64,000 nucleotides of DNA from Taxawa tesnikishii (nom. ined.). Taxonomy: Eukaryota; Ascomycota; Dothideomycetes; Dothideales. The first letter of the stretch is position 1, and every line of letters begins with the position of its first letter. The stretch covers positions 2,294,001 through 2,358,000 of the forward strand of contig JAPDRO010000001.1 in the NCBI GenBank assembly GCA_030247885.1, in the 5' to 3' direction. Below the pieces are notes generated by a model. The model did not search any database. It saw only the letters and a list, made by a program, of their open reading frames with translations, and was not told the DNA's origin. Below are positions 51,127 through 57,400 of this stretch, piece after piece. The position numbers and the translations under genes are program-made.

Positions 51127-52474
51127 CTACTTACCTTTGGCGACTCCTTTGCCTCTACCCCCACCTCCCTTCTTCCCTCCCGGTGGCTTGGATTTCCTCG
51201 CATACAACTTCTCGTTCCCAAACCCAGCGTCGGCAACCCTGAGATAACTCGTAACGCCCTGATCGACGATGGCCAGAATGACATTCTTGTATCCATTCCT
51301 CAGCTTCACATACAGCTGAGCGTCTTGAACCGGTGGCGCGTAAGGAGTGGTGTCAAGTAACGCGCCCAATTGCGCCAGGGTCGGTATAGACGTCTCTCGC
51401 GCGTTAATCACCGCAATACGGAAGTCTGGTGGCCCGGGATCAGATTTTTGTAGGTGGGTGAGCCGGGTTTCCAGATATGATAGGTAATGCGGAAGTTTGG
51501 ATCTGGCGGAAGAGGTGCTCGGTCCTTGCGCACTGTTGGATTGTAGTATGGAATCAGTGCCAGCCGGCGGTAGATGTCATCTACCGTTGTTAGTCAACGT
51601 GGCCTCATCGGGGTATCAGGAACACATACCGTAACTACGATATAAACCTGGCTTAGCAAGTGGACCTGCTTTCTGTCGCTGGCTCTCGTAACGCGGTCTT
51701 TCTGCGAACAGCGACCTCCATTTTCCTATGAACAGACCCAAACTCCACGAAGTCCCCGGTAGTGGTGGAAAACAGTCTTGTGCTGGTGGTGCCCCAGGTC
51801 CATCCCAGCTTGGAGCTCGGTGTACAGTGTACCCCATTCGCTTCAGAGCGGTATAAACGGAATATCGCTCAAAGGTCAACGAGCCGCCGACGTCGCCTTC
51901 GAGACCGATGAACGCAGCATAAGCACCCTGTAGACTCATCGGTACACCCAGGCCATCATCCTCGTCACCGTCTGCAGGCCATCGTACATCCATACTCCCC
52001 GCTCCAGCAGGTACAAAATCTCTTCCGGAAGCAACCACAGCCTGTTCTCGCTTGCGTCACGTACACCGAGAGGGTCGTCTTTGGGTGGATATACCTTGCC
52101 CATGGCTTTGAAAAGCTGTCCTTTGGGGTTCTCCGTATACGCCATGTTAGTTTCCGGATGGTAGATGGCCACATTGTATCTTTTCTGTGCATGTACGCGC
52201 TGGAAACATAATGCAGCATGCATTGCCGCCCTGGATGCTGCTAAAGTATTGGACTGCAAAGCCGTCTGATGTGGTTCGAAGTCCTTCTCACCACGTTTAG
52301 GGATCTTAGCATCTTCAGTTCTGTAATGGCGTTAGGACGCTAAAGTGAAGGTATCGCTGACGAAACGTACGATACGCTAGCCAGAAAACGGAAGTCTTGA
52401 GTTTCGTCAGAAAGGTCAGTCTCTCCAAGATCCGGTCCGTTGCGTGGAATAACATCCTCGTCTGCGTCTGCCAT
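51127..52474 (-). CDS. SEN54: tRNA-splicing endonuclease subunit Sen54
   Basis: Structural subunit of the SEN complex that excises introns from pre-tRNA. Exons 52371-52474, 51630-52320 and 51127-51580. Family marks: acidic start MADADEDVIPRNG, RGEKDFEPHQTALQ, the Sen54 N-domain (NRLWLLPEEILYLLERG), SMDVRWPADGDEDD, MSLQGAYAAFIGLEG, LTFERYSVYTALKRMGYTVH, and the nuclease-fold C-terminus (DFRIAVINARETSIPTLAQL, NVILAIVDQGVTSYLRVADA). Breaks at four C (51997-52000) and five T (51445-51449) each need one base; the first restores LERGSMDVRWP, the second DFRIAVINARE. Corrected length 416 aa. The terminal AAAG-GTAAG-TAG could be a donor for a further exon, but the stop position suits the family. Divergent from the H4 variant. 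Confidence 0.92.
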
Positions 52475-52930: not shown

Positions 52931-53617
52931 ATGGCGCGCATGAGCACCGCGTCCTCAGCTTTCCCGTTGGGCGGCAAGTCTCCTCATGGTGGGAGAGGTG
53001 CAAAGGGACTTGGTGCGGGCAAGACTATGAGGCGTCACCGGTAGTCTACTCCCATCGTTGTGCAAGGCCAACTATCACTGACAATCTCGCTAAGCAAGAT
53101 AATGGAGGATAACATCACCGGGATCTCCAACCCCGAGATAAGGTACGTGTTGTTCTCGGACTTCAGCACACATCTCCTTTGCTAAACATACGACGCTCAA
53201 GAGACTCGCACGTCGCGGCAGTGTCAAGCGCATACCTGCGACAGTCTACGATGATACGAGAATGGCCCTCAAGAACCGGCTTGAGACCGTAAGTCTACTT
53301 CTCTTAAACACTCTGCAAAGGTCATGCTAACACACTCGACAGATGTTGAAGGAAATATGCGCCATCGTCGGTAAGGATTTGTTCGTATTGAAGTCGAAGT
53401 GAATGCTCATAACGATTAGAATACAGAGGTGCAAAGACGGTCAGAGTTACCGATGTAAGTCCTTAAGATTTTCGTCTCCCCTTCTATGCTGATGGTTGTC
53501 TATAGGTCATCTTTGTCTTGAACCGCATGGGTACACCTCTATACGTGAGTGTGTCTGTCCAACAAATACAACCCCCAAAGCTGACCATACTAGGGCTTTG
53601 GTCTTGCGGAACGCTGA
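52931..53617 (+). CDS. Divergent histone H4 variant, seven exons
   Basis: Histone-fold protein aligning to H4 along its full length, but far from canonical H4. Exons: 52931-53040, 53095-53142, about 53202-53288, 53343-53370, 53420-53454, 53506-53544 and 53594-53617. The tail reads GGRGAKGLGAGKTMRRHRK instead of the [20 protein letters not shown] type; the core keeps NITGISNPEIR, LARRGSVKRIPATVYDDTR, AKTVRVTDVIFVLNR and the ending TPLYGFG followed by LAER. Canonical H4 is about 103 aa; this is 122-123. Two ATGs (52931, 52940) are in frame. The first intron ends AAG; the second ends GAG (in frame, one Arg fewer) or AAG with a missing base. Canonical fungal H4 genes have few introns, so this is a separate variant, comparable to the H4v gene known in Neurospora. 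Confidence 0.87.
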
Positions 53618-54535: not shown

Positions 54536-56103
54536 ATGGTCATCATCACTCCGTTCCTGCTCGCGCTCGCGACTGTGCAACTGCGAATCGTGGAGGCTCA
54601 CACCTTGTTCTCCAAACTCTTCGTCGACGGTCAGGACCAGGTACGGTCACGTCAACCTTCCTTGTCGTAAACAGGCTGACTCCGCCAGGGCAATGGCACT
54701 TGTTTGCGTATGCCACTCGATCCAGGCACCGCAACGAACCCGATAGCAGCTCTCTCCAGCAATGACATGGCTTGCGGTGAGCCTTATGCCTGCATACACA
54801 GATCGTTTCGAGCATAGCTAATACAAATTTGCAGGCCGTAATGGCAGCATCGGCGTGGCCCGTGTTTGCCCTGCCTTCTCCGGTTCCGTGTTGACGTTCG
54901 AATACAGAGACGTACCGGACGATGCGTCTAAAGGAAGCATCGACATCTCGCACAAGGGACCATGCGCTGTCTACATGAAGAAGACATCCTCTGCCATCTC
55001 GGACACCGCTGTTGGTGGCGGCTGGTTCAAGGTTTGGGAAGAGGGCTACGACGAGGCTGCCAGAAAATGGTGCACAGAGAAGATCATCGACAATGATGGT
55101 CACATGTCCATCGTAATCCCGAGTGCCCTTGAAGCCGGCTACTACCTCATCCGTCCAGAACTGCTTGCACTCCATCAGACGGACAAGACCCCTCAGATCC
55201 TCAGTTCTATGTGGGCTGTGCTCAGCTGTTCTTGTCGTCTCCTGGCGATGCAGCGCCGCAGGATACAGTCAAGATACCAGGATATGTGAGGGCCGGTGAG
55301 CCGTCTGTGAGTTTTAACATCTGGAGAGAGCCCATGGCACTGCCATATCCGATGCCTGGACCGCCTATCTACTTTTCAAATACCAAACGCAACATCGCCC
55401 AGCACTCCTCACAACTATTCCAAACGGAAGGCATGATACCCGCAAAATGCGTCTTGCAGAACGCCAATTGGTGCGGCATCGAACTCGACAAGTACAGCAC
55501 TGAAACAGGCTGCTGGAACGCCAGTGCTGCCTGCTGGAAGCGATGCGATGAGTGCTACAATAGCGCTCCCCCACTGGTAGTGTAAACTGTCCGATCCGGG
55601 AAGCCAAGTGTACTGCCATTCAGCAGGAATGCAATGCTGGAAACTTCAACGGACCTCCGAATCACATGAAGGCGTTGACACCTGCCATGCGTACCGTGGT
55701 CTTGCCAAAGCCAAATGCACCTCAAGTTGGCGATGGCTCATACCTTCCAACCACCGGAATCGCTGCATCTGGCTCAGTAACAACCGAACAAGCTTCCGCT
55801 CCATCAACGACTTGTACCACGACTTGTACCACGACTTCTCCTTCTGTGAACTCCGTGGCGAAGCTTGCGATCTCAGAGGACGGTTCATGCAACAACGACA
55901 CCACGTGCCAAGGATCAAACTTCGGAAGCTGCTGTAGTAGCAACAATTGGTGTGGCTCTTCCGCCGAATACTGCGGTGATGGCTGCCAGTCGGCTTACGG
56001 TACTTGCGGCACGGCAGCGACGGACAAGCGTAGAGTCCATGAAGCATCATCTCACGCTGCACAGGCATGGACACAAGGAACAGATGCTAGTAGTGGGCGA
56101 TGA
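54536..56103 (+). CDS. AA9 lytic polysaccharide monooxygenase with C-terminal CBM18 chitin-binding domain
   Basis: Secreted copper enzyme that oxidatively cleaves cellulose-type glycans. A signal peptide (MVIITPFLLALATVQLRIVE, then A) ends just before HTLFSKLFVDG, leaving the essential N-terminal His of the copper brace. Other AA9 marks: GTCLRMP, GGGWFKVWEEGYD, the second brace His in YYLIRPELLALH, the axial Tyr in DPQFYVGCAQL, and IPGYVRAGEPSVSFNIW. A Cys-rich linker (GCWNASAACWKRCDECYNSA) and a Thr/Ser stretch lead to an eight-Cys CBM18 module (CQGSNFGSCC, NWCGSSAEYCGDGC). Introns 54641-54688 and 54777-54834. Breaks at four C (55189-55192) and five C (55568-55572) each need one base; corrected length 487 aa. 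CBM18 suggests affinity for chitin or cell wall. Confidence 0.92.
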
Positions 56104-56888: not shown

Positions 56889-57400
56889 TCACAGACACCT
56901 TACTGCTTTCGCAAAAGCCATCCACTCCTCAATGCCCTTGAGATAGGGATTATCTGCATCACCAGGAACCACTTCGTGCCCCCAGACAGTGATATGGTCG
57001 AACGAAGCAAGTTCTTGCATGACCTTGACCTCTTCCTCCGGCTCGTCCTCTCCGAAATCCTCCTCTTCCTCCTCTTCCCTTGGGGACAAGGGCAGCGATG
57101 GCTTTACGGGCACGACGACCTCACTTGTCTTTTCTAGAACGGCGCCTGTTACAGACTTCAGCTCGCACTCCCTCATTTCCTCATCAGGAACACACACGGA
57201 CCCCTATAGTCGTCGGGAAGTTTCACTCTCTTTCCCTGCAGTTTCCTGCCGCGAAAATACACGACGTGGTTCCCACTGTCATCCTCTTCCGGGTTCCAGT
57301 GGCGCTTGGAAGCATTGACGGGCCCGTTATGACTGATTTTGCAGGGGAGTATGTTGGGACGGCAGGGCACAGGCTGCTTGGACGATCGGATTGAATACAT
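56889..57400 (-). CDS. RNH203: Ribonuclease H2 subunit C (Rnh203)
   Basis: Non-catalytic subunit of the RNase H2 complex that removes ribonucleotides from DNA. Single exon, 170 aa after correction, about normal. The conserved strands are visible: CKISHNGPVNASKRHW, VVYFRGRKLQGKRVKLPDDY, then RECELKSVTGAVLEKTSEVV, an acidic insert (REEEEEEDFGEDEPEEE), and FDHITVWGHEVVPGDADNPY with a C-terminal helix EEWMAFAKAV. The frame breaks once at four C (57201-57204); one base restores YRGSVCVPDEE, and the Tyr-x-Gly-x-Val pattern is expected here. The ATG at 57398-57400 is the first available. It precedes REX4 head-to-tail (454 bases). Confidence 0.88.

Follow-up and report, generated by a model that had tools for sequence, protein, structure and literature searches.

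A divergent, intron-rich histone H4 gene of Taxawa tesnikishii that fits the published H4E family

What does the short, heavily interrupted gene that opens at position 52931 of this stretch encode, and is it a working gene? The window analysed here is the whole 64,000-nt stretch, positions 2,294,001 to 2,358,000 of contig C1 in a 29.37-Mb genome of 34 contigs. An earlier note, made from the letters of the window, had proposed a real, divergent and intron-rich histone H4 variant, and this is borne out—the gene has six introns, all GT-AG, its product has 122 residues, and the 60 PDB matches listed are all H4.

Both the start and the end of the stop codon (53617) are exact, on the + strand; the ATG opens the H4-variant gene, which the genome protein search places at G000:C1:2346931. 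Seven exons and six introns make up the gene (Table 1), and the joined exons form a single open frame of 122 codons plus a stop. When any single intron from 1 to 5 is retained, the range that the retention test covered, an early stop follows (at residues 38, 67, 95, 101, and 106, respectively); for intron 6, the joined sequence meets no stop. A branch-like CTNAY motif lies 9–13 nt upstream of the acceptor in five of the six introns (a raw count), intron 2 being the one without it. The earlier note had aligned the protein with H4 from the tail to a YGFG ending; the tail motif GGRGAKGLGAGKTM-RRHRK and YGFG are both present, but YGFG is not the end, as the protein continues for four more residues (LAER).

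Table 1. Parts of the variant gene and neighbouring domain matches, in window positions; template introns (i1 to i7) are those of PMC10878826.
Feature	Positions	Strand	Length (nt)	Remarks
Exon 1	52931..53040	+	110	N-terminal extension, tail, basic patch RRHR; ends in phase 2; from joined frame and genome protein search
Intron 1	53041..53094	+	54	Template i1; acceptor AAG; CTGAC 13 nt before acceptor
Exon 2	53095..53142	+	48	Template exons 2+3 at range maximum (32 + 16)
Intron 2	53143..53203	+	61	Template i3; CTNAY absent; terminal AGs AAG then GAG
Exon 3	53204..53288	+	85	Template 88; covers the end of alpha1, then L1 and alpha2 up to its middle; favoured model has one arginine fewer at R35/R36
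Intron 3	53289..53342	+	54	Template i4, phase 0
Exon 4	53343..53370	+	28	
Intron 4	53371..53419	+	49	Phase 1; outside published template
Exon 5	53420..53454	+	35	With exon 4 makes 63 nt, given as the length for most classes in the text of PMC10878826
Intron 5	53455..53505	+	51	Template i5, phase 0
Exon 6	53506..53544	+	39	Template 18 + 21; without template i6
Intron 6	53545..53593	+	49	Template i7, phase 0
Exon 7	53594..53617	+	24	GFGLAER + stop
SEN54 N-terminal domain (tRNA-splicing endonuclease)	51936..52331	-		PF12928, E 6.2e-21; upstream of variant
AA9 (lytic polysaccharide monooxygenase) pieces	54822..55585	+		Two frames, E 6e-27 and 3.4e-8; downstream
Ribonuclease H2 non-catalytic subunit domain	56889..57203	-		PF08615, E 3e-11

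Homology to H4 extends across the histone fold. A phmmer search of PDB sequences returned 104 distinct sequences at E<=1, with a best E of 2.1e-25, and each of the 60 listed of these is named histone H4 (one row also names H2A). A Pfam scan alone would have missed the variant because at E<=1 it gives no histone family; its sole match, TFIID_20kDa, is sub-threshold (E 0.071; 14.1 bits, the cut-off being 27). That faint match is the one point in favour of a histone-fold protein other than H4—CENP-T, TAF, or CBF-like—an idea to which we give almost no credence, as the listed PDB matches are H4 without exception, the protein is colinear with H4 from tail to YGFG with only two one-residue gaps, and its introns follow the H4E template described below. 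The listed matches (60 of 104) were taken to rule out a TAF, CENP-T, or other histone-fold identity. A genome search with PF15511 (CENP-T_C) gave three matches and is neutral on the variant, since they are an H3 gene and two canonical H4 genes, one of which adjoins it, and not the variant's small exons. Separately, positions 1402–1839 of locus L019 carry a histone-fold reading frame that, by eye, we take to resemble the TFIID subunit TAF6; the frames of seven histone-fold loci other than the variant, inspected on one strand, led nowhere.

Canonical H4 was also to be sought elsewhere in the genome, and the protein search found it: two genes, on contigs C32 and C34, in addition to the one variant. 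The C32 gene is divergently paired with an H3 gene, and the C34 product differs from that of C32 at two residues. Of the nine matches that the search yields at E<=10, the window gene accounts for five and each canonical gene for two; a second copy of the variant was considered and rejected, as all nine fall in known genes, in a search that runs exon by exon and could miss weak copies. Variant and canonical H4 have in common the histone fold, the basic patch RHRK, LARRG, KTV, and LYGFG, and 51 of 99 aligned columns, two of which are one-residue gaps, are identical to C32. The core (H4 residues 24–98) is identical at just 36 of 75 positions, the introns of C32 (at CDS 10 and 148) are absent from the variant, its tails are longer, and lysines have been lost; the gene thus falls outside the canonical class, with its near-invariant core and canonical introns.

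The gene fits a kind already described, H4E or HheA (H4v in Neurospora). H4E was published in 2024 as an intron-rich H4 variant of Pezizomycotina, basal Taphrinomycotina, and Glomeromycota, for which a function was not detected, and N. crassa H4v was named as its orthologue (PMC10878826, whose accessible part is the basis of all that we cite from it). The published template runs i1 (phase 2), 29–32 nt, i2 (phase 1), 16 nt, i3 (phase 2), 88 nt, i4, 60 nt (legend) or 63 nt (text, other classes), i5, 18 nt, i6, 21 nt, i7, with i4 to i7 all in phase 0; these introns are not shared with canonical H4 (PMC10878826). Against this template the variant has exons of 48 (32+16), 85 (88-3), 63 (28+35), and 39 (18+21) nt, and five of its six introns match i1, i3, i4, i5, and i7, allowing one codon of difference (the tolerance being the published ranges and, for two exons, one codon apiece). 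Among 20,000 random sets of six introns, 30 reached four matches and none reached the observed five. The family's tails are longer at both termini and poorer in lysine, with K16 replaced by Arg in many members (PMC10878826); here the tail up to the K20 equivalent has 38 residues (4 Lys, 5 Arg) vs 21 (5 Lys, 3 Arg) in canonical H4, an Arg aligns with K16, and LAER extends the C-terminus. Introns, tails, and K16/R together uphold the earlier note's placement of the gene beside Neurospora H4v.

The likeness to H4E of A. nidulans and other Pezizomycotina covers the divergent H4 sequence, the longer tails with fewer lysines, the K16 to Arg change, the richness in introns at common positions, and, less clearly, same-contig linkage to nudA and svf1 (PMC10878826). 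Unlike the published members, the variant is without i2 and i6, has its 63-nt exon split by an additional phase-1 intron, is missing one of R35/R36 in the favoured model, and lies 54 and 280 kb from those neighbours; it also does not have the 5–16 residue insert of eurotiomycete H4E (PMC10878826). No stable H4E tree was obtained in that survey, and the family has been patchily lost—Penicillium is on its way to loss, and H4E is absent in Ophiostomatales and Botryosphaeriales (PMC10878826). H4v has a role described as unknown and seems unable to replace canonical H4 (PMC10878826, PMC6703697, and PMC7921661, each as accessible in part). Our comparison with H4v is by published description. Hays et al. 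(2002) is reportedly the N. crassa H4v study. Scans for relatives gave four pattern matches in viral contigs and 118 in prokaryote contigs, none of which was confirmed.

Where the variant departs from canonical H4 is uneven. Of K5, K8, K12, and K16, lysine is retained at K8 alone, in a tail alignment that is sensitive to gap placing; K20 with RHRK, K44, K59, and K79 are retained, and K31, K77, and K91 are altered. Identity to C32 is 26/39 over H4 residues 17–55, 13/41 over 56–96, and 5/5 over 97–101 (Fisher p 0.0034 between the first and second, at a split picked after viewing the alignment). With the limits that we take to be those of the H4 helices and loops, presumably including 63–76 as the second half of alpha2, identity is 8/11 in alpha1 and 5/7 in L1 (13/18 together), 6/14 in the first and 2/14 in the second half of alpha2, 3/6 in L2, and 4/11 in alpha3. 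Alpha1 and L1 of H4 touch H3 and DNA, and the second half of alpha2 with alpha3 builds the four-helix bundle with H2B; Y72, H75, and Y88, which we take to belong to this H2B-facing region, are I, Y, and F in the variant. Docking of H2A-H2B may be weaker, because identity drops in the H2B-facing half (56–96). That the protein's changes cluster in one half is a new detail for the H4E family. A stronger version, which we consider improbable, is that this H4E has been reshaped, keeping its pairing with H3 and DNA but docking H2A-H2B so poorly that tetrasomes or open nucleosomes would form, with production gated by a weak intron 2; its docking part draws on the divergence of alpha2's second half and alpha3, which alpha1 and L1 do not share.

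The junction of exons 2 and 3 is uncertain. With the GTACGT donor, only the second of the two terminal AGs (GAG) keeps the frame; the first (AAG), two bases upstream, gives a frameshift and a premature stop. An alternative donor, GTGTTG, joined to the first AG would also keep the frame and give R-Y-R. An 88-nt template exon would begin 3 nt further upstream, at a site with AA in place of AG; read by eye from that start, both arginines, R35 and R36, are encoded. The favoured model thus has one arginine fewer, and the aligner sets the gap at R35. Among fungal acceptors, GAG is to our knowledge the one used least. In a survey of 3' splice sites in the window, the base before the AG of 16 motif-defined candidate introns was T in 8, C in 4, A in 3, and G in 1 (shuffled means 2.8, 4.2, 2.6, and 3.0, respectively), a sample too small to settle whether GAG is rare here. 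The accessible part of PMC3925392, searched for acceptor statistics, holds none. Arg36 is a DNA contact in canonical H4 (PMC10878826). A change of acceptor that shifted the junction by 3 nt, the use of an unusual acceptor, an assembly error, and incipient decay each fit what is seen, and the odd, possibly weak junction with its missing arginine adds new details for the family.

Decay in full would mean that the gene, though its frame is mostly open, has lost the normal acceptor of intron 2, that most transcripts are misspliced and degraded, and that the fast divergence reflects relaxed constraint. We think this explanation unlikely. It draws on the missing CTNAY of intron 2, on a frame-keeping GAG preceded by an AAG that leads to a premature stop, on the patchy loss of H4E (PMC10878826), and on the low core identity to canonical H4; however, the other five introns bear CTNAY, the joined exons read through without an early stop, and the protein keeps an intact basic patch, LYGFG, and most of L1 (5/7). 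Synonymous codon choice is also still coding-like, at 0.061 bits per codon against a null of -0.123 +/- 0.060 (dynein-like codons would give 0.100 +/- 0.044), and only 1 of 2000 composition-only recodings scored as high; this argues against long decay, within a codon model trained on one gene of 4200 nt. The weak intron 2 might instead be a switch, with full-length protein made under certain conditions only. Such regulated splicing seems less probable still—the two close AGs and the alternative frame-keeping donor would suit it, as would the condition-dependent expression of the A. nidulans gene, for which the accessible text does not mention splicing control, but in A. nidulans seven introns were confirmed by RT-PCR and that text reports no alternative form (PMC10878826).

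The neighbourhood gives a less clear picture. In Eurotiomycetes and Dothideomycetes, nudA and svf1 flank hheA (PMC10878826). Here a single DHC_N2 (dynein heavy chain) match, taken as nudA, is found at 2,065,391 of C1, 280 kb from the variant (2,346,931), and an Svf1 match in two adjoining stretches at 2,401,403, 54 kb away; all three are on one 2.83-Mb contig of the 29.37 Mb, not adjacent. Judged by length alone, the chance that a random place lies on C1 is about 1 in 10, and that it lies within 54 kb about 1 in 270. Mesosynteny, in which chromosome content is conserved and order scrambled, is known from filamentous ascomycetes and is strongest in Dothideomycetes (PMC3219968, accessible part), and the same-contig but scattered arrangement is a mesosynteny-like pattern. 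Together with the missing eurotiomycete insert, it tentatively points to a dothideomycete. The immediate neighbours are not nudA or svf1 but a divergent SEN54-domain gene and an AA9 gene. By eye, the SEN54 gene has its start codon near 52474, in a frame that has no Pfam match, and about 450 bp of upstream region are common to it and the variant.

What might such a histone do? Our preferred reading, to which we assign a probability of roughly 0.88 for its parts taken jointly, is that the gene would have been inherited vertically as the fungus's own H4E and would supply a minor replacement histone, pairing with H3 and entering some nucleosomes or H3-H4 tetramers. Particles with the variant would be less responsive to acetylation and would bind H2A-H2B more loosely, because K16 and most of the acetylated lysines are missing and the H2B-facing half has diverged. 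The variant would not stand in for canonical H4; judging from A. nidulans, it is probably used under stress, such as nitrogen starvation. In that species HheA is nuclear, meets H3 by BiFC, and cannot replace H4.1; hheA expression rises on nitrogen starvation at 37 C, deletion or alcA-driven overexpression gave no obvious phenotype, and expression under the hhfA promoter had a modest effect on growth (PMC10878826). The earlier note was right that the class exists and that its role is not established, yet it understated how well H4E has been described: the family has been surveyed across the Pezizomycotina, and in A. nidulans the gene has been deleted, overexpressed, and localised (PMC10878826). 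The stage-specific role that it suggested may exist, but published results on the sexual cycle and spores do not favour it (PMC10878826). No follow-up paper on fungal H4E function was found beyond PMC10878826, in a search that mostly did not reach subscription journals.

Taken alone, the gene is one more member of the described H4E family. H4 variants are rare, and H4E spans a whole subphylum without a detected function (PMC10878826, accessible part). The altered H2B-facing residues, the lost DNA-adjacent arginine, and the suspect junction would give handles on what H4E particles do; the same features bear on whether this lineage is retaining or losing its H4E.
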